A stretch of DNA of 64,000 bases from Phlegmacium glaucopus. Its lineage: Eukaryota > Basidiomycota > Agaricomycetes > Agaricales > Cortinariaceae. The notes under the pieces are model-generated. The model saw only the letters and a list, made by a program, of their open reading frames with translations, made no database searches and was not told the origin of the DNA. A program made the translations under genes and the position numbers. The stretch spans positions 420,394 to 484,393 of the forward strand of contig MU130695.1 of the NCBI GenBank assembly GCA_015039465.1, written 5' to 3'. This document shows, piece by piece, positions 3,091-35,603 of the stretch (position 1 is its first letter; each line of letters opens with the position of its first letter).

Positions 3091-3923
3091 CTCTGAGCGG
3101 ACGATTTGTCAGAATCAGAGATCAAGATGGTGATTATCTGGAGACTTGCGCTGCACAGCACTGCATAACACAAGGTCCCAAGGAGGGGTTCAGGTTTGCA
3201 TTTTGGAGGAAGAAGGCTCAGGGAACTTTCCTCAAGGAAGGAAACATCTACGAGAACGGACTGGCGGAGAAATTTGGTATTCCCAAACCCAAAGAATACG
3301 GTAGAGAGGCCACCGAAGGAGCCAGGTGGATCACTTCGCAGAATGGCGAGGAGGTCAATATGGACGCTAGCATTTCAGCGTAAGCTATCATCATCCTCAT
3401 TGCTTCAAACGACCTATATGAAACTCATCACAACGTGGAATCTTCTCTCCTGTATCTATCTAGATAAACCCCCGTCTTAACCCAATGCGCTATGAAAGCG
3501 TCATTCAAATTCACCTCAGGCCGAGGCGCAGTCCTTGCAATGGAAAACGACATCCTTGTCACAATCAGCCCACCAGGCATACTCCGGCACCTCCTCGACT
3601 CCGAAGAACTCCAACAGCTTGTCGACAATAACAAAAATCTCGTCCTCGTCTCAGAGGTCCACCAATCTTCCTCCTACGCCCGCTTCCTCTCCTCCAAGGC
3701 AGGTGCCACTGTCACACTAGCCCTCAGTGCCGAGCTACCTGTAGCGAATGTCGGTGGGGCGAATGTAGATGCGAAATGGGTGTACAGCAACAGCGCGGGG
3801 AATTTTAAGAGCAAAGTGAATAAAGATGGGGAACGGATATTTTATCCTCTCTTTAGGCTCGTTTCGTTAAAGGAAGGCCCACTTTCGACTGGGATGAGAG
3901 GCGAGGCAGGATTGTTGGAATAA
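3091..3923 (+). pseudogene. Broken gene, remote gasdermin-like look
   Basis: Two coding blocks of one gene are visible. Block one (3091-3379) is open and contains FRFAFWRKK and WITSQNGEE; it ends at a GTAAGC donor. Block two is open to the TAA at 3921 and contains TSGRGAVLAMEND, NLVLVSEVH, YARFLSSKAG and YPLFRLVSLKE. The only sensible acceptor (TAG at 3461-3463) leads straight into an in-frame TAA, and the first exon has no clear start, so the gene looks inactivated. The order (aromatic/Lys motif, amphipathic beta strands, VSEV-type strand, C-terminal hydrophobic strand) loosely recalls the pore-forming domain of fungal gasdermin-like proteins. That resemblance is a guess from memory; the gene could equally be an unrelated basidiomycete family. 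Confidence 0.5.
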
Positions 3924-4130
3924 GCTTAGTGATCAACACATTACTAGTATTACTCGGAGGAAAGGTGAATAAGTAACCAACGTTTCCGGCAAGTGTGTGT
4001 AATTTATAATGAAAATATTAATAGCCTCTGGATTGAGGAACGATGTGGAATCGCGTTGAAGTCATAGGGTTAGCTAAAATTAGCCTAGAATTATGGTTAG
4101 GTTTTGCCTCCCACCGTATCACAAAGTAAT

Positions 4131-5071
4131 GGATCCTCTGTCTTTTATTCTAACGAACGCAGCGACACACCTTATGTCATTTCATATATGACACTTACCT
4201 GATTGCTGAATATCGCCTGCTCTCATTCAAAGACACCAATTTACCCTCTCAGGTACATTAAATTCTTGCTCGTAGCTCATTGTTCAATGATTGTACCCTA
4301 AGCTGTTTCTGCGCCTATCTCAAGCTGTTCTAGCAGCTCACAACGATGGAATTATACTCGGACCACACCTCAATTTTGTTATTCTATTTTTCTATTGCTT
4401 ATTTAGCAAATCTCACTTTGCCCTTGGCAGGGAAACATAACTTGCGATGTGTCGAAGAGCAGCAATGGTCTCCCGTGTGTGACATTCAACAATCTCCCAC
4501 CACCCACATCCCCAACTGGTCCGCCTCCACTTCCTCCGAAGTGGGATGTTCCTGGTTTGAACATCAACTTGCCTGCAAGTATGAAGGAATCGGATATCTA
4601 TACTGCACCGCTTGTGCTATTCCAAGTTTGTATTTATTTAATTCTCAATTGTTTCACTTTTGATGAATCCCATTCTAGCTTGTCGAACATGTAGAGAACA
4701 TTGTTCATGTATCTAAAGAGAAGTCATCACGCCAGAGTGGCATCCACGAAATCGAGTACAGCAGTCTAGTATCCCCGAAACAAATACCATTCCCATCCGA
4801 CAAACCTGACATTCCCGACGTTATCAAGGAGAACAAGCCTCTTCTTCGGATTGTGAGAAAATGTTTGTCGCCTCGACCTGCTCAGCGCCCGACTGCTGCC
4901 GCCTTATGCAAGATGCTCCGCGACTTGTGTAGGTCATCCATTGTCCGCCGTGCTGGACTGGATATTTTGAAGTCGTGAGTCATTTTAAGCACTCAGATAT
5001 CGCGTCTGGTCACTGACATAGTCTATGAATTATAGAGCTTTGTCAATGTTCAAGAGGGTGATGCCTTAATA
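4131..5071 (+). pseudogene. Pseudokinase gene remnant, copy 0
   Basis: This is the 3' part of the array-pseudokinase family found intact at 7562-13122, 43334-50517 and 53634-59616. It starts abruptly inside the exon beginning GSSVFYSNE, without array or coiled coil. It carries the same exon-intron plan through to the final MP-stop exon (TAA 5069-5071). One T is missing in the run at about 4180 relative to the other copies, which shifts the frame in the first exon. The kinase-like C-lobe (PFPSDKPDIPDVIKEN, RPAQRPTAAALCKML) is otherwise preserved. Fragment of an older tandem copy. Confidence 0.8.
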
Positions 5072-5439: not shown

Positions 5440-7470
5440 AATGCGCTATGGTAGATTCTCTGGTGTGGGGGGATTGTAGGTGAATTCAGAATGAATTACG
5501 ACTTCAGTTGATACGACAGGAATTTGTAGATTGAAATTTAAGGGACGGTAAACCTCTGATTCGTCGTCCAAATTGTCAGAAATTTGAGGATAAACCGCCA
5601 TTGTCGTCATATATATCGTTGAACGGGCAAACGATACCAACCACCTATATGGCGAGGAGCGGCCCTTTTAGATATGGAGAAAGATAAGAGCATAAAGAGA
5701 GTTCTGAGCACTTAATAAGCTCACTGAAATATCTCATGATTCATCGAATTCCATCAAATTCTGGAGTGTCAGAAGTGGGAACGAAACTCCAACTTGATGC
5801 GGACGTTACCAGTAGCTATAGATGGAGTACTCTCCCGCGTGAAGACGAGGTTGAAGCAGGGGCTTGTCGCGCGCGATGGGGAAAAGCTGGGCTTCATGAT
5901 TGTGGGGCCGCTCGTCCTTGGCTGAAAAACTTTTCCCCCATGCCTTTCTTCGTCCATTTTGTACTTGATGAACGCGATGTATCCTTTGACATATGCTAAA
6001 AAAATTACCAATTACAACTTCAAAATACAGCCCTACTCAAAGTCCCAATTGCAAGTCGATAATTTCTTGATTGAGAAGTCGAAAGGAATAAATGTGACGT
6101 TTATCACGAATTGAGTCTTTCGGGGCCGGAGATCGGTCAACTTGAGTATTCTGTCTTGCTGGACCGGAAGCAAGGTTACTTTCCGCAAGCATAGGTACAG
6201 CCCATGTCCTAACCAAAAACGTTGTTCGAATTCATTTCTACCTCAGTAGTGAGAAATATGAAACAAGAGGTCAAGTTGAAGTACCGATTGGTGTCGCACT
6301 GCGAATAGATCAGTAAGATTTCTTTAAAATCGAAAAAACCGACCACATACCCGCTGTCCTCTCCGATGGGACATAATCTCTGTCTCCTACTATACGTAGG
6401 AGCCCGATTGTTATCCCTGCAAACTTGTTCCTCCAAAGCCACGATGAACAGTCGACCTAACCGCCCCCTGCAACTTCTCCAATCTTACTGCACTCCGCCC
6501 GTGTATGCCTCAGCGAAGACTCTGTATAGTTCATCATCCATCGTCCTTGCGCGAGGGAAATACGCTTCATTCCCGAAAAATCATCAACGAGTAACGAGAT
6601 TTGACCCTCGGTGAAATCGAACACCTGACCTGGGTTGAAATCGATGAAAAACTGAAACAGCACTAGAGCACTGGTAGTAACATTTACACCAAGGACAGAT
6701 GTCTCGAGCGTCATTTGGCGCAATCGTGACCTCGACGAACTCGGAGAAAGAGATCGTCACGATTTTTATTGGACCTCAAGTGGGCTGGGCAGAATAGAGT
6801 GATGAGCTAAGCTTTCAGACGGGGCGGGATAGATACGGGTCAGGGAGAAGGAGCAGGTCCCAGACCCTCCTGGTGGAACCGTCTACTGGAAATGGGGTGG
6901 GGCCGTCCCAGAGCTCGGCGGCGTCATCATGGTGGTTGTAGGATTTTATAGGAGTGGGAGATAGAGTGGTGTTGCCGGATGCTTCAAGGACGGCGCTCAT
7001 TATTTTCAGGTGGATATTCTTTGGCTAGAAGAGCACAGTTATAGGGGAGGCGACATCTCTTGGATAATTCAGCATTCTGACACAAATGGTTCAAGGAGAA
7101 CAAAGACTCGACTTGCAACATGTACTCACTTGTAGACACTGGCAGTACCGATGTTCCACAGGCGATCTGCACGAACTAGATGTAGTTGTTGTCCCTAGGT
7201 TTCGAGTCGAACTTTGTTGAATTCGAATGCATGAATCTGCAACTGACAATTATTAGGATTTCGAATATTCGGACTAAATCCCACTTACTCCTAGTGCATT
7301 GCTGTGGAAAGAAACAAGAAGGTTTCAATAGAGAGCTTAAAATGGTCGTTCGCGCAAACCTGTGCTGACACGTTCCAAAGGCTGGTTACCATAAACATGT
7401 TCGATGTCAGCGGATCATATGGCAATGACTTTATAAGTTGTAGTAGTACCTTAAATCGTGAACTGCATCT
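5440..7470 (-). pseudogene. Gene X copy A, divergent partner of array gene A (decayed)
   Basis: Minus-strand, multi-exon gene of unknown function, homologous to 41500-43080, 51290-52920 and 60150-60720. Recognisable pieces here: an N-terminal exon near 7300-7400, an IHAFEFNKV exon near 7200-7250, SYNHHDDAAELWDG (6815-7000), LETSVLGVNV (near 6700), a LVDD...YTESSL region (6480-6600) and the tail DESEVY...NLQIPVV...PEFTYNPPTP (5446-5600). Stops occur in the N-terminal exon and right after IHAFEFNKVRLET (TAG), positions that are open in copy C, so this copy is likely inactive. No family recognised. It starts about 90-150 bp upstream of array gene A and is transcribed away from it. Confidence 0.5.
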
Positions 7471-7561
7471 GTTCTCACTTTCACAAGGTACCATTCCACC
7501 CCATCGATCATCAATCATCTCTTCAAGGCTTCACGACTGAGCGCTAGATTTTCTTCATTCA
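7400..7561 (+). promoter_or_regulatory. Likely promoter of array-pseudokinase gene A
   Basis: A TATA-like TTTATAA lies at 7430, 132 bp upstream of the predicted ATG. The same spacing is found at 43202 for gene B (132 bp) and about 146 bp for gene C (53488). The conserved block around it (CAATGACTTTATAA, GTACC, CATCGATCATC, CTTCAAG) and the run TTCTTCATTCA immediately before the ATG recur in all copies. The divergent gene X starts within the same stretch, so the region may be a bidirectional promoter. Confidence 0.5.
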
Positions 7562-10500
7562 ATGGTAAGGGCACAACCTATTGCCAACCTCACTTCCCGG
7601 GTTGGGCCTAAACTCTCTCCAAGCTCTCTTCCTGAGTACTGACCTGTTTTGATCTGCGTTCTATAGGAAGTACGTAAATTCTCTTCAACGGTTCAACCTC
7701 GCCTCCTGACTACTGACTTGCCGTCATCTTCATCCTATAGTGGGTGCGTAAACTCTTTCCAACCTCAGCCTCCTGAGTACCGACCTGCGGTCATCTTCTT
7801 CCTATAGGGTGTGCGTAATTTTTCTCAAACCTTGCCTCCTGAGTACTGACTTGCTGTCATCTTCATCTTATAGCAAGTGCGTAAACTCTATCCAACCTCT
7901 CTTCCCGACTGACCTGCCTTCATCTTCATATTATAGGAAGTGCGTAAATTCTCTTCAACCCCACCTCCTAAGTACTGACCTGCTGTCATCTTCGTCCTAT
8001 AGGCTGTGCGTAAATTCTCTTCAATCTCGCCTCCTGAGTACTGACTTGCTGTCATTTTCATCTTATAGGAAGTGCGTAAACTCTATTCAACCTCTTTTCC
8101 GGACTGACCTCCTGCCATCATCTTCATCCTATAGTGGGTGGGTAAATCCTCTTTAACCTCACCTCCTGAGTACTGACCTGCTGTCATCTTCTTCCAATAC
8201 TTTACGGTCCCCCACCCTTTCCAATTGGAATTCCTTGGAAACATTTGGAATCCTTGGAATCCTTGGAAGTCCTTGGAATTCCAAATAATTCCAATTGTTT
8301 CCAGGATGTTTCCAAGGAATTCCAAATGTTTCCAAGGAATTCCAAATGTTTCCAAGTAATTCCAATTGTTTCCAAGATTATTTCCAATTTCATTCCAACT
8401 GTTTCCAAGGAATTCCAAATGTTTCCAAGGAATTCCACATGTTTCCAAATGTTTCCAAATGTTTCCAAGGAATTCCAAATGTTCCAAGTGTTTCCAAGGA
8501 ATTCCAAGGAATTCCCAGGATTCCAAGGATTCCAATTGCCAACTTCCTAATCAAGTAATTAATCACCCTGACTTGTAGCATATGACAAATAAAAGAATAC
8601 CAGTAAGGAGAATTGAACCAAAGACCTTGAGAAAGGTCATGTGACATAATTCCCACACTGCATCAGTGATCTACCAACTGCACCATCATTGCTTGTATAT
8701 ATATAAAAACTAATGGTTATATATACCCCTCCCACCTGACTAAATAATATATTCTGGCACTTGTTGAAGGGCTACTACCATGTATTATATACCAAAATGT
8801 TCAGAAAAATGAGGGGAATCCATTGATAATACAATCGCGATGTTATACGCACTTTGATATGCAGTTATATGCGAAATACTGCAGAATATACAGTAAAATA
8901 ATGCGCTCTATGCTTATAAATGAGCCTAACATGACGCACCATATACCGATATAATCGTGCTAATAACAGCTTTCAGAATATATATAAATCACGTGCATGC
9001 GCCATGTCTGGTGCGTGTTTTTACACATTTTATATGTTTTAATATTGAAAAAGGGCTTATATTCCCACGCTCATAGTATGGTTATATTCCCTAGCAGTGT
9101 AGTGTTCCATCGGTATAAGGTGCGTCATGTTCGGCTCACTTATAAGCATAGAGCGCATTATTTTACTGTATATTCTGCAGTATTTTGCGTATAACTGCAT
9201 ATCAAAGTGCGTATAACATCGCGATTGTATTATCAATGGATTCCCCTCATTTTTCTGAACATTTTGGTATATAATACATGGTAGTAGCCCTTCAACAAGT
9301 GCCAGAATATATTATTTAGTCAGGTGGGAGGGGTATATATAACCATTAGTTTTTATATATATACAAGCAATGATGGTGCAGTTGGTAGATCACTGATGCA
9401 GTGTGGGAATTATGTCACATGACCTTTCTCAAGGTCTTTGGTTCAATTCTCCTTACTGGTATTCTTTTATTTGTCATATGCTACAAGTCAGGGTGATTAA
9501 TTACTTGATTAGGAAGTTGGCAATTGGAATCCTTGGAATCCTGGGAATTCCTTGGAATTCCAAAGGATTTCAATTGGAAAGGTCCCTTGGTGATTCCAAG
9601 GAATTCCAAGGATTCCAATTGGAAACTGGATTTCTACTGGAAAGCTTGGAATGGGATTGGAAAGAAATTCCGAGAATACATGACTTTACAGTGAGACACA
9701 GTACTAAATTCTTCCAATTGGAATTCCAAGGAATTCCGAGGAATCCAAGAAATTCCAAGGAATCCTAAGGAATTCCAAGGGATTCCAAAGGATTCCAAGG
9801 AATTCCAATTGGAAAGGGTGGGGGACCGTAAAGACCTCTCTTCTTCCTATAGGCTGTGCGTAAAGTTTCTCAAACCTTGCCTCCTGAGAGAGTGCGTACA
9901 CTCTTTCCAATCTCGCCTCCTGAGTACTGACCTGCTGTCTTCTTCCTATAGGCTGTGCGTAAACTTTCTCAAACCTCTACCTCCTCAGTACTGACTTGCT
10001 GTCATCTTCATCTTATAGGAAGTGCGTAAACACTATCCAACCTCTCTTCCGGACTGACCTGCCGTCATCTTCATCTTATAGGAAGTGCGTAAACTCTATC
10101 CAACCTCTCTTCCTGACTGACCTGCCATCATCTTCGTCCTACAGCGAGTGCGCAAATTCTCTTCAACCTCACCTCTTAAGTACTGACTTGCTGTCATCTT
10201 CGTCCTATAGGCTGTGCGTAAATTCTCTTCAATCTCGCCTCCTGAGTACTGACCTGCTGTCATGTTCGTCCTATAGCTTGTGCGTAAAGTCTCTTCAATC
10301 TCGCCTTCTGAGTACTGACTTGCTGTCATATTCATCTTATAGGCAGTGCGTAAACTCTATCCAACCTCTCTTCCGGACTGACCTGCCATCATCTTCATCT
10401 TATAGGAAGTGCGTAAACTCTCTCCAAGCTCTCTTCCTGAGTACTGACCCTGTTTTGATCTGCGTCCTATAGGAAGTATGTAAATTCTCTTCAATCTCGC

Positions 10501-13122
10501 CTCCTGAGTACTGACTTGCTGTCATCTTCGTCCTATAGAGCGTGCGTACACTCTTTCCAACCTCGCCTTTTGAGTACTGACCTGCTGAGTATTGACCTGC
10601 TGTCATGTTCGTCCTATAGCTTGTGCGCAAAGTATATCCAACCTCTCTTCCTGAGTACTGACCTGCTGGCATGTTCATCCTATAGGCTGTGCGTAAATTT
10701 TCTCAAACCTGACCTCCTGAGTACTGACTTGCTGTCATCTTCATCCTATAGTGGGTGCGTAAACTCTATCCAACCTCTCTTCCGGACTGACCTGCCATCA
10801 TCTTCGTCTTATAGCGAGTGCGTAAATTCTCTTCAACTTCGCCTCCTGAGTACTGACCTACCGTCATCTTTATCCTATAGTGGGTGCGTAAACTCTTTCC
10901 AACTTCAGCCTCCTGAGTACTGACTTGCTGTCATCGTCGTCCTGTAGAGAGTGCGTACACTCTTTCCAACCTCGCCTTCTGAGTATTATAATACCTGCTG
11001 TCTTCTTTCTGTAGGCTGTGCATAAAATTTCTCAAACCTTACCTCCTGAGTACTGAATTGCCGTCATTTTCATCTGATAGGAAGTGCGTAAACTCTATCC
11101 AACCTCTCTTCCTGAGTACTGACCTACTGTCATGTTTGTCCTATAGCGAGTGCGTAAATTCTCTTCAATCTCGCCTCCTGTGTACTGACTTGCTGTCGTC
11201 TCCATCCTGTAGGAAGTGCATACACTCTATCCAACCTCTCTACCGGAGTACTGACCTGTCGTCATCTTCGTCCTATAGCTTGTGCGTAAATTCTCTTCAA
11301 CCTCGCCTCCTGAGTACTGAACTTCTTCTTTGTTCTATAGGCTGTGCGTAAACTCTTTCCAACCTCACTTCCTGAGTTCTCACCTGCCGTCATCTTCGTC
11401 CTATAGGAAGTGCCTACATTCTTTGCAAAGTCGCTTTTTGGGTACTGACCTCCTGTTATCTTCGTCCTATAGAAAGTCCGTAAATTCTTCCCAACCTCGC
11501 CCTCTGAGTACTGACCTCCCGTCATCTTCGTCCTATAGAAAGTCTGTGAACTCTATCCAACTTCCTCCCCTGAGCACTGACATCCATCAACTCCGTTCTA
11601 TAGAAAGTGTGTAATTGTCTTTCAGCCCTTGTCTGCTTAAAAATGTTCATATGTCTTTCTTTTTAATCAGAGAGTGTGTACTGTCTTTCCACATTTGTTG
11701 TCAAACTTGAACCTGAAAATCTTTTCACTCTCCAGGAAGTACGTCATCTCACTTTTCAAACAATGACAGTAGTATTGACTCCTATATTCCAGGAAGTGAT
11801 TTCTCTTCTTGTCTCATTGGTAAGCACTTTCGAAGATCAACTTGCTTTCAATATTAATCCATCGCCGCAGTACATGATTTAACGAGTTTACTATAGAATA
11901 GAAAGGCAGTCCTCCAACGAGTTCAGGAGTTACAGGAGGAACTCCAAAAATTACAGTTACATAAGCAGGGGAAAGCAGGCACACAAAGGTATGAGCAACA
12001 ACGCCTTCAGAAACAGCTCAAACCTGGCACTAGTGCAAGGCGTACAGAGCAATCCGCAAGGGTATTGATTGCTGGTGCTGAGTATGAACAGGTTATCTCT
12101 TGGGTAAGTAACTTCTCACGCTCCTTGACAATATTTTATCAATTACATTTGATGGTCACAGCGATGCACTGAACAGAGGAAAGGATCCTCTGTCTTTTAT
12201 TCTAACGAACGCAGTGACACACCCTATGTCATTTTCATATATGACACTTACCTAATTGCCGAGTATCGCCTGCTCTCATTCAAAGACACCAATTTACCCT
12301 CTCAGGTACATTAAATTCTTGCTCGTAGCTCATTGTTTAATGATTGTACCATAAGATGTTTCTGCGCCTATCTCAATCTATTCTATCAGCTCACAACGAT
12401 GGAATTATACTCGGACCACACCTCAATTTTGTTATTCTGTTCTTCTGTTGCTTATTTACCAAATCTCACTTTCCCCTTGCCAGGGAAACATACGTTGCGA
12501 TGTGTCGAAAAGCAGCAATGGTCTCCCGTGTGTGACATTCAATAATCTCCCGCCACCCACATCCCCAAATGGTCCGCCTCCACTTCCTCCGAAGTGGGAT
12601 GTTCCTGGTTTGAACATCAACTTGCCTGGAAGTACGAAGGAATCAGATATTTATACTGCACCGCTTGTGCTATTCCAAGTTTGTATTTATTCAATTCTCA
12701 ATTGTTCCACTTTTGATGAATCTCATTCTAGCTTGTCGAACATGTAGAGAACATTGTTCATGTATCTAAGGAGAAGTCATCACGCCAGAGTGGCACCTAT
12801 GAAATCGAGTACAGCAGTCTTGTATCCCCGAACGAAATACCATTCCCATCCGACAAACCTGAGATTCCCGACGTTATCAAGGAGAACAAGCCCCTTCTTC
12901 GGATTGTGAAAAAATGTTTGTCGCCTCGACCTGCTCAGCGCCCGACTGCTGCCGCCTTGTGCAAGATGCTCCGCGACTTGTGTAGGTCATCCATTATCCG
13001 CCGTGCTGGACTGGATATCTTGAAGTCGTCAGTAATTTTAAGCACTCGGATATCGCGTCTGGTCACTGACATAGTCTATGATTTATAGAACTTTGTCAAT
13101 GTTCAATAGGGTGATGCCTTAA
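7562..13122 (+). CDS. Array-pseudokinase gene A (single-codon exon array, coiled coil, kinase-like domain)
   Basis: Proposed model: ATG at 7562-7564 directly followed by a GTAAGG donor; an array of about 38 three-base exons; then exons 11793-11819 (EVISLLVSL), 11897-12103 (coiled coil starting NRKAVLQRVQELQEEL), 12162-12305, 12356-12430, 12484-12678, 12732-13027 and 13089-13122. All introns are phase 0 except the last. The C-terminal part resembles a protein kinase C-lobe: LRLSQSILSAHNDGII (helix E-like), KESDIYTAPLVLFQLVEHV (helix F-like), and CLSPRPAQRPTAAALCKML (helix H/I with the structural Arg). The catalytic-loop HRD is replaced by ILGPHLNFGN and no DFG is seen, so it is probably a pseudokinase. 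A Pro-rich loop (PPPTSPNGPPPLPP) sits where the activation segment should be. A 1.6-kb transposon lies inside one array intron. Expression is untested; copies B and C support the model. Confidence 0.6.
8598..8692 (-). other. tRNA-like module in left arm of foldback element
   Basis: On the minus strand an A-box-like TGGTGCAGTTGG (8674-8685) and a B-box-like GGTTCAATTCTCC (8607-8619) are spaced as in a tRNA gene, with a perfect 6-bp hairpin GACCTT-TCTC-AAGGTC between them like a class II variable arm. Acceptor and T stems pair poorly, so this is a degenerate tRNA or SINE head rather than a working tRNA. Confidence 0.5.
9367..9461 (+). other. tRNA-like module in right arm of foldback element
   Basis: Mirror copy of the module at 8598-8692: A box at 9374-9385, variable-arm hairpin, B box at 9440-9452, followed by a TTTTA stretch near 9465 that could end pol III transcription. 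The same pair of modules occurs in the second element (around 23200-23295 minus and 23970-24066 plus), where the B box is GGTTCAATCC, closer to the tRNA consensus. Confidence 0.5.
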
Positions 13123-22817: not shown

Positions 22818-24450
22818 CAATACTTTACGGTCCCCCACCCTTTCCAATTGGAATTCCTTGGAAACATTTGGAATCCTTGGAATCCTTGGAAGTCCTTGGA
22901 ATTCCAAATAATTCCAATTGTTTCCAAGATGTTTCCAAGGAATTCCAAATGTTTCCAAGTAATTCCAATTGTTTCCAAGATTATTTCCAATTTCATTCCA
23001 ACTGTTTCCAAGGAATTCCAAATGTTTCCAAGGAATTCCACATGTTTCCAAATGTTTCCAAATGTTTCCAAGGAATTCCAAATGTTCCAAGTGTTTCCAA
23101 GGAATTCCAAGGAATTCCCAGGATTCCAAGGATTCCAATTGCCAACTTCCTAATCAAGTAATTAATCACCCTGACTTGTAGCATATGACAAATAAAAGAA
23201 TACCAGTAAGGAGGATTGAACCAAAGACCTTGAGAAAGGTCATGTGACATAATTCCCACACTGCATCAGTGATCTACCAACTGCACCATCATTGCTTGTA
23301 TATATATAAAAACTAATGGTTATATATACCCCTCCCACCTGACTAAATAATATATTCTGGCACTTGCTGAAGGGCTACTACCATGTATTATATACCAAAA
23401 TGTTCAGAAAAATGAGGGGAATCCATTGGTAATAAAATCGCGATGTGATACGCACTTTGATATGCAGTTATACGCGAAATACTGCAGAATATACAGTAAA
23501 ATAATGCGCTCTATGCTTATAAATGAGCGGAACATGACGCACCATATACCGATAGAATCGTGCTAATAACAGCTTTCAGAATATATATAAATCACGTGCA
23601 TGCGCCATGTCTGGTGCGTGTTTTTACACATTTTATATGTTTTAATATTGAAAAAGGGCTGATATTCCCATGCTCATAGTATGGTTATATTCCCTAGCAG
23701 TGTAGTGTTCTATCGGTATAAGGTGCGTCATGTTAGGCTCATTTATAAGCATAGAGCGCATTATTTTACTGTATATTCTGCAGTATTTCGCGTATAACTG
23801 CATATAAAAGTGCGTATCACATCGCGATTTTATTACCAATGGATTCCCCTCATTTTTATGAACATTTTGGTATATAATACATGGTAGTAGCCCCTCAGCA
23901 AGTGCCAGAATATATTATTTAGTCAGGTGGGAAGGGTATATAACCATTAGTTTTTATATATATACAAGCAATGATGGTGCAGTTGGTAGATCACTGATGC
24001 AGTGTGGGAATTATGTCACATGACCTTTCTCAAGGTCTTTGGTTCAATCCTCCTTACTGGTATTCTTTTATTTGTCATATGCTACAAGTCAGGTGATTAA
24101 TTACTTGATTAGGAAGTTGGCAATTGGAAACATTTGGAATTTCTTGGAAACATTTGGAATTCCAAAGGATTTCAATTGGAAAGATCCCTTGGTGATTCCA
24201 AGGAATTCCAAGGATTCCAATTGGAAACTGGATTTCACTGGAAAGCTTGGAATGGGATTGGAATAGGATTGGAAAGAAATTCCGAGAATACATGACTTTA
24301 CAGTGAGACACAGTACTAAATTCTTCCAATTGGAATTCCAAGGAATTCCGAGGAATCCAAGAAATTCCAAGGAATCCTAAGGAATTCCAAGGGATTCCAA
24401 AGGATTCCAAGGAATTCCAATTGGAAAGGGTGGGGGACCGTAAAGACCTC
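22818..24450. mobile_element. Mutator-like foldback element, copy 2 (9-bp TSD TTTCAAGGC)
   Basis: Same structure and ends as 8196-9838, flanked by 9-bp duplications TTTCAAGGC (22809-22817 and 24451-24459). Each arm carries a tRNA-like module. It differs from copy 1 by small indels in the GGAATTCC-repeat ends and scattered substitutions, so both moved fairly recently. It splits a minus-strand Gag-type gene. Open frames inside it are repeat artefacts. Confidence 0.85.
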
Positions 24451-24988: not shown

Positions 24989-26290
24989 TTCATTCAGGTT
25001 CCCAGGTGTTTTCTGCAGTTGAATATCCTTTCCATTTTATAAGGAAGGTGTATCCTCTTCCCTGTCGTCTGTGGGAGATTATTGACTCGACTTCATACTC
25101 CGGTTGGCCTTCGATAAGGTCAGGAGGTGGTTGTGGGAAGTTATCGCCATAGACTTCATTTGTCTTGTAAGGGGAAAGTAGCGTGATATGAATGACTGGG
25201 TGAATTCTCCAGGAGCAAGGTAATTCCAGGTTGTAGCTGAGGGGACTTAGAACTTCTATGACTCTGAAGGGGCCTTCTCATTTAGGTGCCATTTTCTTGG
25301 TTTTGTATTGTAGTTTAAGGTATTGTGACTCGAGCCACACCTTATCTCCTATCTTGAATGGGGTGAAACCTCGGGTAATGCGTTCTGTCATGACTTGTCG
25401 TGCAAGTTCATGGGCTGCATTGGCTTCTTTCCGTGCTTCTTGGAGATTGATAAGGCGTTCTTGGGTATCAGGGATATTGGTTCTAGGGAATGCGGTGGGG
25501 ATAGCGGTTGGGTTATAACCCATTTGGAGGAATAAGGGAGATTCTTTTTGCGTAGCATGTGGTTTGGTATTGTAAGAGAATTTGAGGGTAGGGAGGTATT
25601 GTCGCCATTGGTCAGGGTTATTTGCACAGAAGATGGATAGGTAAGCTTCAATTTCTTGGTTTGCTCTTTCGGTGGCTCCGTCTGTCTGTGGGTGATGGGC
25701 TGTGCTCATGACTAGGTTGATGCCAAGGAGTCGTCCTAATTCCCAAAAGACGTGAGAGGCAAATTGGGGGCCGCGGTCGGAGATAGCTTTATCCGGTAAT
25801 CCGTATCTTTTGTAGAGTGAGTCAAGTAAAATAGAGGTGGTTCTGGCATCAATTATTTTGTGGCATGGAGTTAGAATTACCCCCTTCGTAGACCCGTGGT
25901 TGACCACGACCATGATAGAGTCAAAGCCGTCAGAAGGAGGGAGATCCGTGATGAAATCCATAGTGATCAGAGAGAATGGGTGAAGTTGTTCGGAACGAAT
26001 GGGTTGTAAAGGCGGAGAAATAGGGTGTCAGTTTATCTTGTGTTGTTGACAGATGGCGCAGCCATCAATGTAGTTTTGAATGAATGTAGCCATTCCGGGC
26101 CACCAGTAATTGCGTTGAACTAGATTCTGGGTAACGAGGCATCCGGGGTGTCCAGCAGGGATAGAGTTGTGATGTTTGCGAACAATATTACGGCGTAAGT
26201 CCATGTTATCAGGTACGTAACAGCGGTCTTTATAAAAGACCAGGTCACCGTCGGTTCGCCAGTCGCTAAGGGCAGAGCGCATAGGGAGTA
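24942..26290 (-). pseudogene. Ty3/gypsy chromovirus integrase and chromodomain (3' pol fragment)
   Basis: Minus-strand frame with, in order: HHCC zinc finger (RKHHNSIPAGHPG, CAICQQHK), integrase core with the DDE residues (TMDFITDLPPSDGFD, ISDRGPQFASHVF, HPQTDGATERANQEIEAYL), a GPFRVIEVLSPLSYNLELP linker, and a chromodomain (YEVESIISHRRQGRGY, FLIKWKGYSTAENTWEPE). Three in-frame stops, all TGA, interrupt it at 26028-26030, 25278-25280 and 24990-24992. RT and RNase H are missing: the fragment ends at about 26290, where the non-LTR element begins. Inactive. Confidence 0.85.
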
Positions 26291-26442
26291 CTGTGTAACT
26301 TGTGGACTATGCCCACCTAGCACAATAAATATGATATGAGAAAAAAGAAAAAACAAGATGGATTAAACCCACACACCTATGATCACCAGGGCAGAGATCG
26401 GCAATAGCAATACTGGGCTTCGACACATGAGAAGATGCTAAT

Positions 26443-27246
26443 GTGGCAATCAGGTCAGGTTTATGCATCGAGGGAAAGAAAGTATGGGGTAGAAAACAAA
26501 CCCAAGAACCAAGAAGGTGCCTCAAATGTCAATGTTTTGGTATGCACAAAGCCACAAAATGCACATCCACCCACAAAGGATGTGGACGTTGTGTGAAACA
26601 CCACAGGACCAATGAGTGCACGGAGCTGGACCAAAACATGTTAGAATATGCAAACTGTCGAGCAGCCAAGCTTGAGAGCTACAAGGGACATGGTGCAGCA
26701 GACAGAAGATGTCCAATTTTCCTAGCAAGGGTCATCAAAACAAATCTAATTCATCAAGAGAATAATTACAAGTTCTTTTGTACAATGGATCCAGCAACCT
26801 GGGAATTAATTGGGGGCCACAACTCAGCAGAGAATGGGGATAGGAAGAGAGGACAGGACATCAAAGCATACCCGAAAGAACACATGGGCAGGTACTACGA
26901 AGGGTGGTCAAGAAGGATAGAGGATGGGCAGAGAGAAGGAATCACGCACAAGATCAGGGGCAACGGTTGGGAAAGAATAAGGGAAAGAGTCAAACCATAT
27001 GGTAGAAGAGATGAAGAAAACTGGAGAGAGACACCATGTGAGGAGGGGAGGAAGAAAGAAGGAAAGGAATTGGATGGACAGACAGGCAAAGGGAAAAGGA
27101 ATTACGTGCAAAGCAAAGGCCCCACACAGACCACACTTGACGAGGTGTGGGCCAGCAAAGATACAAGAACATGGGTGGAGCAAATAGAAGAAATGGAGGC
27201 AGAACTAGATAAAGAAAGACAAGCCAGCGTGCTTTCTTATGTCTGA
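26443..27246 (+). CDS. Non-LTR ORF1 (Gag-like, two zinc knuckles)
   Basis: A 267-residue open frame. CCHC knuckles are at residues 26-40 (RCLKCQCFGMHKATKC) and 47-59 (CGRCVKHHRTNEC), followed by a basic, highly charged tail rich in Arg, Lys and Glu. It would bind element RNA as a chaperone. The frame probably began further upstream (homology-like coding continues to about 26330 with stops), so the ATG at 26443 may be internal. It overlaps the start of ORF2 by a few bases. Confidence 0.7.
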   Translation: MAIRSGLCIEGKKVWGRKQTQEPRRCLKCQCFGMHKATKCTSTHKGCGRCVKHHRTNECTELDQNMLEYANCRAAKLESYKGHGAADRRCPIFLARVIKTNLIHQENNYKFFCTMDPATWELIGGHNSAENGDRKRGQDIKAYPKEHMGRYYEGWSRRIEDGQREGITHKIRGNGWERIRERVKPYGRRDEENWRETPCEEGRKKEGKELDGQTGKGKRNYVQSKGPTQTTLDEVWASKDTRTWVEQIEEMEAELDKERQASVLSYV

Positions 27247-28487
27247 TACAACCAATACAACCAAAACAAGGAAGCTACACATTTGGCAACAAAACATCAA
27301 TCGATCGCTGGAAGGACAGCCTTATCTGTTACAATCATTGAAGCAAGACTTATACAACGTTGTAGCCATACAAGAACCACATATAGATTTCCTAGGACGA
27401 ACCAGAGCAAACCCCCACTAGACAGTGGTATACCCGAAGCGGCATCTAGAAGGCTAAGTAAAACCAGATCTGTCATCTTAGTCAACTGGAAGTTATCCAC
27501 AAACAACTGGGCAGAAATACCTCTAGCATCGCCAGATGTGACAGGAATATGTCTACACAGTGAATTTGGAGGCATTTGCATTGTCAACATATACAATGAT
27601 TGCAAACACAACAGGAGTATAGAGGTAGTGAAGGAATTCATGAAGGAAGAAAGAAGATGGGAGGAGAGGGTCAATGAGAGATACATCTGGATGGGAGATT
27701 TCAACTGACATCATCCAATTTGGGATGAGGAAAGAAATGTGCACCTCTTCACAAGAGCAGCACTAGAAGCAACACAACTGTTACTTGACATAATCAAAAA
27801 ATATGACATGAGGATGGCATTACCCAAAAACATCCCAACGTTGGAAGCATTCACAACAAAAAACTTTACGCGGGTGGATAACGTGTTCTGTTCAGCAGAA
27901 CTAAGCAGGGCATTCATATCATGCAATACCAAACCACACCTATGACCACAAAAGACAGACCACATGCCAATACTATGTCAGCTGGAGATAGAACCAAAAT
28001 GAACAATGCACATAGACAAATTCAACTATAAAATGATGAACTGGGAAGAATTTTGAACACTGCTAGAGGAAGAATTAGCACACATCAAAGATCCAGTGGA
28101 ATTCACATCAACAGAGCAATTTCAAACCAAACTATTGCAACTAGACAACACAATTAAAGCGGTAGTGCAGAAACATGTCCCAATAACAAAGCTCAGTCCA
28201 TACTCAAAGAGATGGTGGACCAAAGAGTTAGCTGGGCTAAAGAAAGAAAAAGAAAAATGGGCAAGGAAATCATATGAATGAAGAGCATTAAACAAGGACC
28301 CAACACACAAATCATATAGGCAGGTGGGTAACAAATATTCACAGGCATTATGTACCACCAAATCAGAGCACTGGATAGAGTGGTTAGAGTCACTAGATGA
28401 GGAAGGAGTATGGATGGCAAACAGAATGACATCAGGCCCAGCCACAGACAGAGGAAATTGCAGGGTACCAACACTACAAGTAAGGGA
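27239..28487 (+). pseudogene. Non-LTR ORF2: AP-type endonuclease domain
   Basis: The start encodes LHIWQQNINRSLEGQPYLLQ and VAIQEPHIDF (endonuclease catalytic Asn and Glu motifs), followed by a TAG at 27419 where a Trp is expected and then a frame change. The next frame carries YIWMGDFN-stop-HHPIWD, the GDFN catalytic motif, then the KTDHMPI motif, and runs to PTLQVRDP before a MITE. This frame has five stops (27706, 27943, 28000, 28054, 28279), all TGA and all in one register, at positions where Arg or Trp fits. Inactive. Confidence 0.75.
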
Positions 28488-28496
28488 CCCCATAAC

Positions 28497-28711
28497 TAGT
28501 GTTGCTGATGGCTCGAGCTGCTTTTTTTCTATCTTGCTAAATAAATTTTGTAAAATCACCAAAATATTTGAGTAGCTAGATCACCTCAGGAGCCGGTTGG
28601 CAAAAGACCCACTGGCTCCTGAGGTGATCTAGCTACTCAAATATTTTGGTGATTTTACAAAATTTATTTAGCAAGATAGAAAAAAAGCAGCTTGAGCCAT
28701 CAGCAACACTA
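28497..28711. mobile_element. Palindromic foldback MITE, TSD CCCATAAC
   Basis: 215 bp, almost entirely a perfect inverted repeat: TAGTGTTGCTGATGGC... on the left and its inverse ending CAACACTA on the right, with a loop near 28594-28612. Flanked by the 8-bp duplication CCCATAAC (28489-28496 and 28712-28719). It interrupts the RT gene. Its terminal TAGTGTTG matches the ends of the KDZ element at 36210-41410, which could have mobilised it. Confidence 0.9.
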
Positions 28712-29498
28712 CCCATAACCAAGGAGCTGATGCAGGAGGCCTACACCAATGAAGACAAAGGAAAGATGCTGTATAAGCTATTCTTCCCCAAACATACAGC
28801 ACCAGCGGCAATGGTTCCCACAATACCGTACCCACTGGAGAAATGGGTGTATGAACCAACGACAGATGAACAAATAAACCAAGCGATAAAGAAAATGAAG
28901 CCATGGAAAGTGACTAGATCAGGAACTGTTCCAAATTCAGTATTCATCCACATGCGAGAAATGATAGTTCTGCACCTTGGCCCACTCTTCAGAGCCACGG
29001 ACACACTCAAATTCTATCCCAATGACTGGAAAATAACAGAAACACCGGTATTGAAAAAACCAGGCAAGCCAGACTATACTTTGGCCAACGCATGGAGGCC
29101 TATAGTATTAACTAATGGGTATGCGAGGCTGCTAAACAGATGCAAAACAGAGGACCTTGTTCTAATGTGCGAAAAGACTGGCATTATGCCACACAATCAT
29201 TTTGGAGGGAGACCGGGCAGAGCAACAACCAACTCCATACATTTAATGGTCAAAACAGTTAAGGACGTGTGGAGGAAAGGAGAGGTAGCCTCTCTACTCT
29301 GTTTGGACGTGAAAAGCACATTCCTAAGTACAGCAGTGGATGTGATGAGACATGAGATGAGGACAAATGGCATACCAGTGGGGCATGTGGAATGGATGGA
29401 GAGAAGATTAGAGGGCAGAAGAATTACACTCATGTTCAATGATTTCAGATCAGAGCCTTTCAACATTGAAGGAGGACTAGACCAAGGAGACACGCAAT
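28712..29498 (+). pseudogene. Non-LTR reverse transcriptase, first part
   Basis: Open from the MITE to 29498. Visible RT motifs: a thumb-proximal LFFPKHTAPAAM region, VPNSVFIHM, ITETPVLKKPGKPDYT (motif 1/2), AWRPIVLTNGYARLLNR, HNHFGGRPGRATTNSIH (motif 3), CLDVKSTFLSTAVDV (motif A with catalytic Asp) and FNIEGGLDQGD (motif B). It breaks off at motif B where an LTR-type sequence is inserted. The motif C (YADD-type) region must lie in lost or later sequence. Confidence 0.8.
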
Positions 29499-31165
29499 TG
29501 TTAATAGCCTGGCTCATATTGTTAGGGGACACTCATTGTGTCCGCCTTTAGGTACATTTAGTATTACTTACTTTCACTTTCACTCTACGATAGTATTACA
29601 TACCGTGTTCCCCTTCCTACCCTTTACAGACTCCCTTCCATTGTTGTAGTAGTTGACCCTTTGCCGATGACATTGTACTGATGTCAGTATCTATTCTTGG
29701 TATCTACCTCGCCCTACCTTCTATTATGTACTAGCCATATATAGTTGTATTAGCTCCCACGCTATAAATCGTTGTTTGTGTTGTTATAAAACACCAACCA
29801 GAGAGCAATGGACTAGTCTTTAAGTCAAAAGCCTCCCTGTTGTTCATTTAGGGAAGGTGTAACCTTGACTTGTATCACACAGAGGTAGGGAGCAAGAGTA
29901 GAGGTGAGGAGGATGAGGATGAAGGTCTTGGAAGATGAATGAGGTAGAAGATGAGGATGAGGATAGGTAAGAAAGAGTCTTCAGTAAGACTATAGCGGTT
30001 GACAGTAGAGGACAGTGACAGTAAGGGACTGAAAAAGCGAACTTAGAGGGAGGAATTCACTGGAATTCCACTGAGAAGATGACTGTTGGGAGTAAGAATG
30101 AATTGAGGTGAACTACCTATCCTGGTACAAAAGAGCAGTATTTATACCCTAAGGATGAGGCTATGTAGAACAATAAAAAGAAAAAAGTACGTGCTGTCAA
30201 AGGAAGAAAGATAAAGAGAGGACAGCTGTGAGAAGAAAAGAACAATGGAAAAGAAGAAAGAACAATAAAAAAATCTGTAAAGTGTCAAAGTGCGAGAGAA
30301 AAGAAAAGAAGGCAGTGTACATAGTCCAATAGCAAAAATATATCGACTCCATAGGCGTGTGGTCATGTCAAAAATGTGAAAGGTCCTGAGTCAACACTTG
30401 AAAGGGGCAGCCTTGTTCCCAAGAAAACACTACTTGCCCATGATCCCATGTCGCACAGCCTTGATAACACTTGACACACTGCGAGAATAATCCTCTGCTG
30501 CTGATTCATCTGCAATTCCTGCTTAGTCGTGATCCTCCTGGACTTCCTAAATTGTCATAAAGAGGGTGGGAAGGCTTCATGTACCGCGTGAATGATGGTT
30601 TTGGCAGTGAATGATAAGATAAGAGGTAGATAATTGAGGATAGAGGACTGAGTGAGATCCAGGAGCAAGGGATGGCAAGATAGATGGCTGAGGGGAAGAC
30701 TTGTGGGTCCATAGCCACAACAACGATGACAAAGCCTTGTACATAATGGGAGATGTAGTTGATGTGTCCATAAAGGGGCCATTCTTGAAATGATGGACCA
30801 AAGATACGATCAAACGCGAGCCGATGACCGATGCGAATAGTAGATTGATCGCTTTGCTGGATCACTAGCCAAGGAACAAATGGATGGTAGATGCTTAGGA
30901 GCATGTCGATAGTAAAAACAATGGAGAGCATAGTGTGAGGTATGATGAGTGATGAGGGTGATAACATTGAACGAATGATTTGTTGACCAGGAATGCGATT
31001 CAGGGCCACTTCCAAAATAGGTAAGTGAATTCAAAGTCCGCTTATTTTCATGATGGCAACTTTTAAGCTTTCTTCTCACGCTACCAATCAGTATTGGTGC
31101 ACAATAACACTTTATAGTATATAGGTGTAAGGTGCTTATCGAAGATAAGCACCTTGAAATTCAAC
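29499..31165. mobile_element. LTR-retrotransposon-type insertion (possible LTR 29499-29881)
   Basis: The RT frame is interrupted here by about 1.67 kb. The first 383 bp look like an LTR: they start TGTTAATAGCC, contain a TATA-like CTATAAATCG at about 29761, and end TATCACACA. No second LTR could be matched near the right boundary, so it is a truncated or composite insertion. The interior has a long minus-strand frame (30506-31015, 169 codons) of no recognised family and GA-rich runs. A perfect 12-bp hairpin AAGGTGCTTATC-GAA-GATAAGCACCTT lies at 31129-31155. Boundaries are approximate. Confidence 0.4.
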
Positions 31166-32068
31166 TTGATTCCCGGGTCCTTATGTTCTCTAACACATAT
31201 ACAATCTGTCCATCCTCAAGATATTCTGAAAAGAAGCAAACAAAACAGGAGTTCTATACATCAACAACACGGCAATCATGACAATGGGGGCCAACTTCAA
31301 TGTCACACACAACAAGCTAAAGAACATTATGAACAGAGAAGGAGGAGTCATGGATTGGGCCAACATACACAATTGTTCCTTTGGTCTAGACAAATTCCAA
31401 CTTTTGGACCTATCACAGTGCAAAATCAAAGATCCACTAAGACCACGAAAAAGGATACCATTACCGAGAAAAAACCTCCTACTCAACAGACAGAACATAA
31501 AGTCAGTTCAATCGGTCAAATTCCTAGGTCTACATATAGACAGGGAATTAAGATGGAAGGAACAGATTGCGGCGGCAATAGGCAAGGGTAGAGAGTGGCT
31601 AAGACAATGTGCGAGATTAGTGAATCCATCAGGAGGGGTAGCAGGAAGACACATGAGGAGACTTTACCTGGCAGTGGTAAGGCCCAGAATGTTATACGGA
31701 GTGGACATATTCCTAAGACCATCACTACGATCAGACTTGATCAAGGCAAAAAAAGGAGCGAGATCTGCGCTAAGCAAATTGGCATCAATACAAAGAAGTG
31801 CAGTGTTGATGATAGTAGGAGGAACATGCACATCCGTGACATCCCCCACAGATTCACTCGATGCCCACACAGACCTACTCCCTTTCCACCTTCTGGTTGA
31901 TAAGACATGATTCCAAGCAGCTTTACGATTAGCCACACTCCCTACCACTCATCCTCTGCACAACCCAATTAAGCAAGCAGCATGTAGATTCATCAAAAAG
32001 CACCACTCACCGCTTCATGAGTTGATGTACAAGTTCAAACTAAAACCAGAGGTCATGGAGAAAATCGA
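31166..32068 (+). pseudogene. Non-LTR reverse transcriptase, C-terminal part
   Basis: The frame resumes with NLSILKIF, KEANKTGVLYINNTAIM, VKFLGLHIDRELRWKEQI (the conserved LGxxxD...W motif downstream of RT), RLYLAVVRPRMLYGVDIF and KLASIQRSAVLMIVGG, then TGA at 31908 and ALRLATLPTTHPLHNPI. Stops include a TAA near 31173 and TGAs. It ends at EKIES where a Mutator-like element is inserted. Confidence 0.8.
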
Positions 32069-33843
32069 GAGTTCTTTACTCTCCCCCACCTAATCTGCAC
32101 AGACAGCTTGGATTCCACTTGGACTTTACTAGGAATTTTTTTGGCAGAATAATCAGCCAAATTTCTGTTCCTAGTCCAAGTGAAGTCCAAGTGAAGTCCG
32201 AGCAGACTCCTAGCAGAGTTGCTAGGACTCGGATTTCCTAGTTAGGAGTCTGTTCAGATTCCGCATGGAATCACTAGGAACTGCTAGGAATAATCCGAGC
32301 AGTTCCAAGTTATTATTATTACTATTAATATTGAAAAATATATGTAAGTTAATATTCATTACTTGATGAGGTGGCAATGACTTATTGCCATCACAATTTT
32401 GAATTTTGTTTAGCCCGCAAGGTAGTCACATGACCACCTGTGACGCACATCAACAAGCTGCCAGCAGCTCATTTTCTCACACTCTCAACACCACCCCACA
32501 CAACACAAACACTCACCACCACCACACCACCACTGCTGCCACCATGACAAATGACGACGACGACAATGACAGACGACAATGACAATGACAAATGTCGATG
32601 ACAACAATGGCAACCCCCCCACTGGGGGGGTATTTTCGGTGTATTTCGTTGTCTGAGATGATGAACCCCTCTAACTGAGGGTTTTTTTTTGGTTTTAACA
32701 GACTACAGTGACCTCATCACTCGTTTTGACCACCCGGCTACCCATTTGACCACCTGGCACCCATTTCCAACCACACACCACCCATTTCAAACACCCAATG
32801 CCCATTTTGATGATTAAGCGCCTGTTTCGAACACCTACCACCTGTTTCAAACACTAGGCACCCATTTCGAGCACCCAACACCCATTTCAAACACCCAACA
32901 CCCGTTTCAAACACCCACCACTTGTTTTGAACACTAGCCACCCGTTTCGAGCACCCAATACCCGTTTCGAGCACCTGACACCCATTTCAAACACTTGGCA
33001 CCCATTTCGAACACTAGGCACCATTTCAAGCACCCAATACCCATTTAAAACACCCAACACCCATTTAAAACACCCAACACCCATTTCAAACATTAGCCAC
33101 CCATTTCAAACCTATTTCACATACCCATACCCATCTCTACTATCTTACCACTCTACCTATCCCTTTTGTTAAATTTTATCTTCAACTTTTGTAATCCTAA
33201 TATATTAGTAACCAACCCCCTCACAATGGGAGTAATTAAGTCATTTTAAATTTTAATCAATATGTTAGAAAAGTTAGAAAATAATATGAAACCCAATGAG
33301 TTAGTAGGAATTGACTTAGAGATTCTGGTACTGAGTAAATAAAAATAAATAAAATGTACATACTGATAGGAAGGTGCAGAAATAATAACAAATAAATTGT
33401 ATATACATATCCATGTAACATTGATATAATTAGATGGAACAATGATATTTAAGTTATTTTATTTTATTTGTAAATGAATTGTAAGTAGGTAATAAATACA
33501 AATAATAGTTTCATACTACAAATGCCTACTTGGCTAAGGTCCTGGTATTTATGAAAATATTGCTCAGACTCATACAAAATTCACTTGGACTTCACTCAGA
33601 CTCACACAGGAATAGGACTTAGAAACTTTCTTTTTTTTACTCGGACTACTCAGACTACTCAGACTTTACTCGGAATTTTTGGCTTTGAAGAGCTAGGAAT
33701 TTCTTGAAGCTCAGACTTCACTCGGACCGCTCGGACTTTATTTGGACTTTATTTAGACTTTACTCAGTCTCCATGCGGAATCCTAGCAGTCAGTGCAGAC
33801 AGCTCAGAGTCCGTGCAGAGTAGGTGGGGGAGTGTAAAGTACA
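32069..33843. mobile_element. Mutator-like TIR element 3 with minisatellite core
   Basis: The ends are imperfect inverted repeats: CTTTACTCTCCCCCACC on the left and GGTGGGGGAGTGTAAAG on the right, followed inward by TCTGCACRGAC and many TCGGACT/AGGACT-type short repeats. They resemble the CTTTACGGTCCCCCACCC ends of the foldback elements. A likely 9-bp target duplication is GAAAATCGA (32060-32068) and GAAAATTGA (33844-33852), one C-to-T difference. No transposase. It splits the non-LTR element between RT and RNase H. Confidence 0.65.
32725..33115. repeat. ~21-bp minisatellite
   Basis: About 18 imperfect copies of a 21-bp unit (CACCCATTTCAAACACCCAA and variants) in the middle of Mutator-like element 3. 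Divisible by three, so open frames run through it on both strands; these are not genes. Confidence 0.9.
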
Positions 33844-34439
33844 GAAAATTGAAGCAGTGAGACAAGGACCAAAGTGGGAACCCAACATAGCGATCAGGAT
33901 CGCGTATAACAAGGACAAAGCAAAGGAAGAAGACAGAGCGGACATAATAAATATCAAGGTGTACACAGATGGGTCAGGCTTTGAGGGCCAAGTAGGAGCA
34001 GGGGCAATTTCTATACCACAATGGGGTGATTAAAGGAAGGAAAAGGATGAGACTGGGATTGTTAAAACATCATATGGTATACAAAGGAGAAGGGGTGGGA
34101 ATGATATTGGGGTTGGAGCTGATAAGGGAGGAGCAGATAGTAATGGGCTTGATACCAATGGGGGTTGACAACACAGCAGCAATGACGGCAACATACATGA
34201 TTAAGCCAGGACCAGGACACTACATATGGGACCTATTCCACTGCAGACTGAGTATGGTCAACAATAAACATAAAGATATGGACTTACTAGTAAGATGGAT
34301 GCCAGGACACATAGACATCAAGGGAAATGAAGAAGCAGATAAAGAAGCAAAAGCAGCAGCTCAACACAGATCCAGCCCTAACAATAAACTACCAGCTCCA
34401 TTAAGAAAGCCATTGCCATGCAGTAAATCCACAGTCTGA
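33844..34439 (+). pseudogene. Non-LTR RNase H domain
   Basis: Contains KVYTDGSGFEGQVGAGAI (first catalytic Asp), GMILGLELIREEQIV (Glu helix), MGVDNTAAMTATYM (second Asp) and RWMPGHIDIKGNEEADKEAK (His/Asp end). A frameshift near 34030 separates the first motif from the rest. It ends where the GAACT-type MITE is inserted. Confidence 0.85.
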
Positions 34440-34440
34440 C

Positions 34441-35050: not shown

Positions 35051-35603
35051 AGTCTGACAAGCCTATCACACCAAACTCAAGCGTCTATCCACCAAAATCT
35101 GGGTCAAATTGCCACGATACGAAAAAATGAAGTGTATAGACTCATCAATTCCATCCAGTAAATTTGCGAAATACACACAACATATGAAACACAGCCAGGC
35201 TAGTATGCTATTCCAACTAAGGATAGGACATGTGCTGCTCAACACGTATCTACACCATATCCAAAAAGCAATGTTGCCGGTATGCACAAGGTGTCATGGA
35301 CACAATGAAACAGTCCTACACTTCCTGATACACTGCCCAGCCCACAACAATGCCAGAAATAGTATGTTCCAAGCAGCAGGAAGAGACACCAGGATGTCAA
35401 CAAACTCCTATCCACCCCAGAGCTATTTCCACACCTTTTCAAATTCATCAGATGCAGCAGAAGATTTGAACACACCCAGGAAGCAAACACATAGCAATAG
35501 ACAATTGGCATCAACCCCTAATCTATATTACCACATCACATTTGTCATGATCATTATTTCATGCAGATACCCCGCTTCAAGGCATGCTATGCATACCTCA
35601 TAG
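35051..35603 (+). pseudogene. Non-LTR C-terminal domain with CCHC-type zinc finger
   Basis: The frame from about 35059 encodes a helical region (IWVKLPRYEKMKCIDSS, SQASMLFQLRIGHVLLN) and the classical C-terminal finger CTRCHGHNETVLHFLIHCPA, a C-x2-C-x7-H-x4-C pattern typical of ORF2 ends. The tail after residue 130 is unremarkable and ends at a TAG at 35601. Confidence 0.8.

Follow-up and report, generated by a model that had tools for sequence, protein, structure and literature searches.

Genes assembled largely from very small exons are the closest systems described. In the excerpted account of the Schistosoma micro-exon genes (MEGs), very small exons make up as much as 75% of the coding sequence and variants arise by exon skipping; tandemly repeated 81-base exons, each far over one codon, are referred to by title for S. 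mansoni (PMC4015677). The aphid bicycle genes are described, in the text available, as having many small internal exons of the same phase, megacycle having more than 100 micro-exons and a chain length of about 2000 amino acids (aa) (PMC9168663). A 64,000-nucleotide (nt) stretch of the Phlegmacium glaucopus genome (the window; contig MU130695.1, positions 420,394–484,393 of the forward strand) displays three paralogous arrays, A, B and C, in which the exons are smaller still. These arrays are most probably spliceosomal introns separated by phase 0 exons of one codon each, which would be spliced into an N-terminal helix rich in E, A, R, L and K. The genome searched comprises 60.5 Mb in 259 contigs and the window is on its contig C237.

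The arrays are similar to the MEGs in having multiple very small exons, and they display many consecutive micro-exons that can be skipped in frame, the three genes having 194 of them, each 3 nt long. The MEGs, however, are worm genes, most with a signal peptide, and the excerpt does not mention 3-nt exons that follow one another between tandem introns of nearly the same sequence (PMC4015677). The aphid exons are in phase 2 and contain many codons on average, as far as the excerpt goes (PMC9168663), whereas the one-codon exons and the downstream exons of the array genes are in phase 0. Ultra-short exons are also on record singly. Exons of 1 nt, for instance, occur in the plant genes APC11 and VPS55 (PMC8831610) and, supported by reads, in CYP621A of Fusarium (PMC12940212); Drosophila homothorax has an exon of 3 bp (PMC7392893) and Dactylellina lipS has two exons of 3 nt (PMC5639578). 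As excerpted, these reports show that exons of 1–3 nt can be spliced, but there are one or two per gene vs. 37–88 in tandem here. A “3-bp exon 2” of Ganoderma gpd was not used, as the excerpted wording may refer to three bases of exon 2 (PMC8379801). Similar spliceosomal introns multiply within a genome as introner-like elements and as fungal sister stwintrons; according to the excerpts these sit in unrelated genes, whereas the array introns are tandem within one gene family (PMC4457414, PMC8469720). Among the matches listed from the open-licence part of PMC, no title or abstract describes tandem one-codon exons, which is weak evidence because most subscription papers and all bioRxiv-only preprints lie outside it. 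The array genes can be regarded as an extreme sort of micro-exon gene, since the parts are known and the arrangement, to our knowledge, is not.

Layout of the arrays and their splice signals

Tandem Repeats Finder gives a repeat of 66-bp period at three places in the window, with 71%–76% matches. An earlier note, made from the sequence of the window, described a single array of one-codon exons between introns. That array (A) is real, however there are three arrays in the window and a truncated fourth on contig C1. With terminal units counted, the one-codon exons number 37 in A, 88 in B and 69 in C, a total of 194, all in phase 0.

Gene A has its start codon at 7562–7564 (+ strand, as are all features of the three array genes) with the donor GTAAGG directly after it. 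Array A is at 7565–11792 and begins with intron 1, which is 102 nt long (7565–7666). The first part of the array (7667–8137) has eight 3-nt exons, E W G Q E A E W, with introns of 60–71 nt. It is followed by a 1715-nt intron (8138–9852) that contains an inserted element of 1644 bp at 8195–9838, and then by the second part (9853–11738), which has 29 3-nt exons (A A E E R A L A E E S L A W R W R A E R E L A E K K K R E). The spliced reading is M-EWGQEAEW, the insert, AAEERALAEESLAWRWRAERELAEKKKRE and EVISLLVSL. The earlier note, which gives the units as about 60–66 bp, did not mention the element. The last three introns of A have also diverged; those of A, B and C show 57%–65% identity to the repeat (59%–62% in A alone), with their 3-nt exons kept.

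The start codon of gene B is at 43334–43336, followed by the donor GTTAGG, and array B, with its 88 exons, is at 43439–49130. One donor of B is GC (position 46385) and one acceptor, at 46954, is lost and reads TGG. Gene C has a first start codon with two outlying 3-nt exons (E at 53087 and W at 53178) at 53023–53180, a second copy of the start context at 53624–53626, and array C, with 69 exons, at 53699–58188. The start context TTCATTCAATGGT is common to gene A, gene B and the second start of C, and is similar at the first C start. The start region of C is thus present twice (53023–53640), with two one-codon exons between the copies. Inside array B, at about 45670–46138, the 3′ end of the array is present a second time (ELAEKKKR together with diverged terminal introns), which looks like a fusion of two arrays.

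The pattern YAG-N3-GTRNGY has 166 + strand matches in the window, and 165 of them are within arrays A, B and C. Each of the other acceptor–donor spacings from 0 to 12 gives 1–11 matches vs. 166 at spacing 3, and the − strand has eight matches to the pattern. When donors and acceptors were scanned for independently and leniently, 187 of 191 adjacent acceptor–donor pairs displayed spacing 3 (A 35/36, B 85/86, C 67/69); rows with two successive donors or two successive acceptors are left out of this count. Of the four remaining pairs, one spans the inserted element, two lie at array edges and one is due to a mis-registered TATATAG. The pattern of putative single-codon exons is thereby confirmed in the sequence, and the claim of exactly three bases between acceptor and donor in every unit holds for nearly all units. 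Departures in A include the intron split by the insert and a unit at about 9891, which has no acceptor: a deletion has removed its branch-to-acceptor segment, which results in a 96-nt intron and the loss of one codon with the frame kept. Not every donor fits the GTRNGT of the earlier note; GTGCAT, GTCCGT, GTCTGT and GTGCCT also occur.

Intron lengths are mostly 51–88 nt with a mode of 63. Division by three leaves a remainder of 0, 1 and 2 in 143, 17 and 22 of 182 introns; as 39 of the 182 are not multiples of three, it is the exon length and not the unit length that is held. Retention would bring an in-frame stop in 162 of the 182 introns.

The three diverged terminal units were set aside, and four array pieces were aligned to a 66-column consensus (exon = NNN) by wraparound dynamic programming in which neither AG nor GT was required. 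About 190 units were aligned, including two false 5′-edge units and one damaged unit. Positions G1, T2, A39 (the branch), A62 and G63 vary in 0, 1.1, 0.5, 1.6 and 0% of units, i.e. the GT donor, branch adenosine and AG acceptor of a spliceosomal GT-AG intron are the five least variable of the 63 intron columns (chance by rank, 1 in 7.0 million). The exon columns are among the most variable and differ in 47%–60% of units. Deleted bases and insertion openings number 0 in columns 1–6, 255 in columns 7–60, 2 in columns 61–63 and 2 in the exon columns, where both come from the one damaged unit. AG dinucleotides are nearly excluded from the segment between branch and acceptor (6 in 3890 positions vs. 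182 in 5824 upstream).

Codon content and the downstream gene

The number of array triplets scored was 188, and 186 after two false triplets at the 5′ edges of A and B were dropped. None is a stop or Pro, two are Gly and 164 encode the helix formers E/A/R/L/K/Q/M, in agreement with the charged helix-type residues read earlier. Column shuffles give means of 5.0 stops, 30.2 P/G and 85.8 helix formers, a contrast that shared descent inflates. Less affected by descent is the use of different codons for the same residues, Leu and Arg: Leu is 18 CTT and no TTG in A and B, and 3 CTT, 1 CTC and 4 TTG in C, and Arg is 19 CGA and 6 AGA in A and B, and 9 AGA and no CGA in C. Codons ending in AG, which would create a second acceptor three bases on, number 4 vs. 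64 GAA/AAA/CAA codons in the arrays, whereas the downstream exons of A and C have 70 vs. 51. By inspection, the N-termini are charged in A (EWGQEAEW) and B (AEREIREL) and hydrophobic in C (LSSLLALAW).

In each of the three genes the frame of the array continues into EVISLLVSL, which is followed by a coiled coil and a region weakly resembling a protein-kinase C-lobe. The phase 0 register stated earlier, from the ATG to EVISLLVSL, is therefore correct, and the exons that follow are open. In gene A the EVISLLVSL exon is at 11793–11819 (27 nt, phase 0) and the coiled-coil-like exon at 11897–12103 (207 nt). The kinase-C-lobe-like exons span 12162–13028 (12162–12305, 12356–12430, 12484–12678 and 12732–13028), an end set by the search pattern. 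The downstream exons of B (49185–50423) and C (58243–59522) are likewise open and in phase 0, their ends being provisional. Six downstream exons in each of A, B and C are open and have lengths that are multiples of three. Ratios of nonsynonymous to synonymous change (dN/dS) are 0.29 (A-B), 0.24 (A-C) and 0.29 (B-C) by NG86, and 0.44, 0.34 and 0.45 by YN00, which is consistent with purifying selection on these exons.

The downstream part appears kinase-like at most. Its score with Pfam PF00069 is 17.9 bits, under the gathering cut-off of 31.7, and covers profile positions 174–259 of 263 only; among solved structures there are weak kinase C-lobe matches, the best with an E-value of 0.19.

The view of the earlier note that these are consecutive single-codon exons is supported by the invariance of GT, branch A and AG, the fixed exon length with free intron length, the lack of stops and the helix residue set. 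The depletion of AG between branch and acceptor, the scarcity of codons ending in AG and the register into exons under purifying selection support it as well; the predictions tested at the level of sequence were borne out.

Proposed splicing, origin and alternatives

The unit of the tandem repeat would be one intron plus one codon. If the genes are transcribed and each unit is spliced, reading from the ATG would give a helix of up to 37 (A), 88 (B) and 69 (C) residues rich in E/A/R/L/K, joined in frame to EVISLLVSL, the conventional coiled coil and the degenerate kinase-like region. The segment is predicted to form a helix, whose length may have a role in oligomerisation. The introns, at about 60 nt, are of a size suited to intron definition. 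A donor only three bases from the previous acceptor is probably not bound together with it, so the introns are likely to be removed one after another. Each splice would add one codon to the growing exon and expose the next donor, and mis-pairing would drop whole codons and give in-frame length variants. As every exon is 3 nt long and in phase 0, each unit that is gained, lost or skipped changes the product by one residue without a frameshift; acceptor losses are soft for the same reason, each costing only one residue. It is tentatively suggested that sequential, error-tolerant splicing gives a graded helix population that differs in frame by single residues, that unequal crossing-over in introns tunes the length, and that the codons may diversify.

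Several points weigh against this reading. A CTRAY motif is found 12–40 nt before the acceptor in only 150 of 182 introns. The donors at the start sites weaken from GTAAGG in A to GTCAGA and GTCCAG in C. The element in array A separates a CTGAC branch from its acceptor, so that array A may be impaired; if that acceptor fails, donor 8138 could use the acceptor at 9951, with loss of one in-frame codon. No heptad periodicity is found in A or C, and hydrophobic moments over 18 residues are non-significant in A, B and C. Array B displays a helix peak at 103 degrees with p 0.006 at the coiled-coil angle, but a peak as high occurs at some angle in 1160 of 2000 shuffles and the second half of B alone gives p 0.38. 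Unusual heptad strength was accordingly rejected as a feature of the arrays, being weak and confined to B. Shuffle and Fisher values in general overstate the evidence because the units share ancestry, a problem that the rank test partly escapes.

The codons also show about five times as many differences per site as the adjoining introns, a pattern not expected from simple purifying selection on the protein. There are 76 unit pairs in which the less similar of the flanking introns differs by 3%–9%; in these, codons differ at 0.19–0.32 per site and introns at 0.04–0.06, and none of the codon differences is synonymous. The two pairs below 3% intron difference have identical codons. Unit pairs are not independent in these figures. 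This is the opposite of codon conservation between similar units, and conservation at the codon level within arrays is not claimed. The excess makes diversifying selection on the codons possible; diversifying selection and intron-internal recombination both fit it.

The truncated array on contig C1, where the search with the downstream protein found nothing, offers a comparison. Twenty triplets were read there and 19 kept, as one was in the first exon. P/G number 3 of 19 vs. 2 of 186 in the arrays (Fisher 0.006), helix formers 11 of 19 vs. 164 of 186 (Fisher 0.002), and one acceptor has been changed to TAC. The acceptor G and the donor T are each retained in 19 of 20, however, and as most splice sites are kept the contrast is only mild, which is a further point on the opposing side. 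The sample is small and different ancestry could explain the residues, thus C1 supports rather than proves decay where the gene is missing.

As to origin, the arrays would have expanded through tandem and block duplication of units. In A and B taken together the codon type tracks both neighbouring introns (0 of 500 shuffles), which points to duplication of intron-codon units. In array C no relation is seen between the identity of codons and the similarity of introns (98 and 95 of 500 shuffles), either through age or through intron spread. There is a resemblance between the terminal exon GAAGTGATTTCTCTTC and the start of the unit, GAAGTGCGTAAATTCTCTTC, which is equalled in 27 of 5000 shuffles and in 16 of 891 coding windows. 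This only hints at a duplication across the last intron-exon boundary, comparable to potato RdRp, where according to the excerpt such a duplication and a cryptic donor gave a new intron (PMC4974935). The potato case is a single event.

The same present structure could have been produced by introner-like invasion of an old coding sequence, with copies of one intron placed between every codon, and this origin appears unlikely. It agrees with the lack of codon-intron relation in C and with a distant paralogue (L053, below) in which three 79-nt introns split a P-loop stretch that is uninterrupted by eye in L052. Insertion at every codon boundary, 37 to 88 successive times, is however hard to produce, codon and intron are linked in A and B, and the choice of codons is far narrower than in the downstream exons. 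A genome search with two consensus introns gave at least 133 matches, all in the arrays of the window or on C1, and not the near-identical introns in many unrelated genes that mark introner-like elements.

It is unlikely that the arrays are transcribed but mostly skipped, the ATG or an early donor being joined to a late acceptor so that the repeat is in effect one large intron. Since all exons are in phase 0, any skip, even that of a whole array, is in frame; the donors and acceptors are nearly equivalent, which makes mis-pairing expected, and one unit in A and one in B have lost the acceptor with the frame unbroken. The excerpt of PMC4974935 cites genes of fission yeast with two or four tandem duplicates covered by a single intron. 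Wholesale skipping, however, gives no reason for GT, branch A, AG, exon length and stop-free helix codons to be kept in almost all units.

Very unlikely is a neutral minisatellite, i.e. an ancestral intron-plus-codon unit that was multiplied and whose splice-like look is inherited and not maintained. The arrays are head-to-tail repeats like a minisatellite and the units are clearly tandem duplicates with block repeats, but there is constraint inside the unit: the five essential positions are the least variable and the exon letters among the most variable. Shared ancestry explains part of the uniformity, as codon type tracks intron sequence in A and B; the introns of C, however, differ by about 20%, enough for decay to show. 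The C1 copy, which is without the gene, bears on both sides, with most splice sites still present but with helix breakers and a lost acceptor.

Continuous translation as a 22-residue repeat protein (LSTDLLSSSSYRKCVNSLQPR...), for which there are open frames of up to 333 aa within B and C and shorter ones in A, is rejected because 39 of 182 introns break the frame and mean variability hardly varies by codon position (0.14, 0.118 and 0.155), and it also leaves the invariance of GT, branch A and AG unexplained.

Two further proposals were dropped. RNA hairpins that loop out the introns are not supported, as a 261-nt stretch of B folds no better than shuffles (z -0.50). An intronless or retrocopied array protein was not found in the genome: the spliced B helix matched on the coiled-coil side only, at the three known genes (residues 48–123 twice and 55–123 once).

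Relatives, mobile elements and significance of the array genes

A fourth copy of the downstream region of the family, copy D, is at 4116–4975 (+ strand) and has neither array nor coiled coil; near 4180 it is one base shorter than A. There is no strict array match upstream of 7664, i.e. on the copy D side. Directly upstream of copy D is an open reading frame of 151 aa (3468–3923) that has no Pfam match.

Distant paralogues on contigs C213 and C202 have no 3-nt array, with 2 and 1 spacing-3 matches in 9.5 and 9.9 kb, and by eye display TPR/DnaJ-like parts upstream. A piece of the paralogue L052 gives matches to several P-loop families, including KAP_NTPase (23.5 bits, cut-off 20). L053, on the reverse strand of C202 (reverse-complement positions 7201–7509), has three 79-nt introns that are mutually 90%–95% identical and are separated by 36-nt exons (VIGTNGLGKSSL, INYFNDVDTNNL). 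L053 represents a second case of intron multiplication in the array gene family. Relatives in plasmids were searched for without a match.

The element inserted in array A at 8195–9838, between branch site and acceptor, has a perfect 8-bp target-site duplication, TCTTCTTC. A second copy of 1633 bp, with the 8-bp duplication TTTCAAGG, is at 22818–24450. Both copies have ends rich in TTCCAA, and their interior looks by eye like a long inverted repeat. The length of the duplication suggests that the element is hAT-like. Between the array genes, at 25278–36000, open frames resemble by eye a retrotransposon integrase and reverse transcriptase, and a 20-bp tandem repeat (CACCCATTTCAAACACCCAA) of about 18 copies is at 32758–33111.

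If the arrays are spliced as proposed, they would be extreme among known forms of exon-intron architecture. They would test whether the spliceosome joins many successive 3-nt exons with each donor three bases past the acceptor, and would offer a natural system for splice-site pairing among dozens of near-equivalent sites. They would also provide a route by which a protein may lengthen residue by residue without a frameshift. Annotation pipelines are likely to miss such genes, which is a warning in itself. Arrays A, B and C, together with the copy on C1, may form a series that shows how introns multiply.

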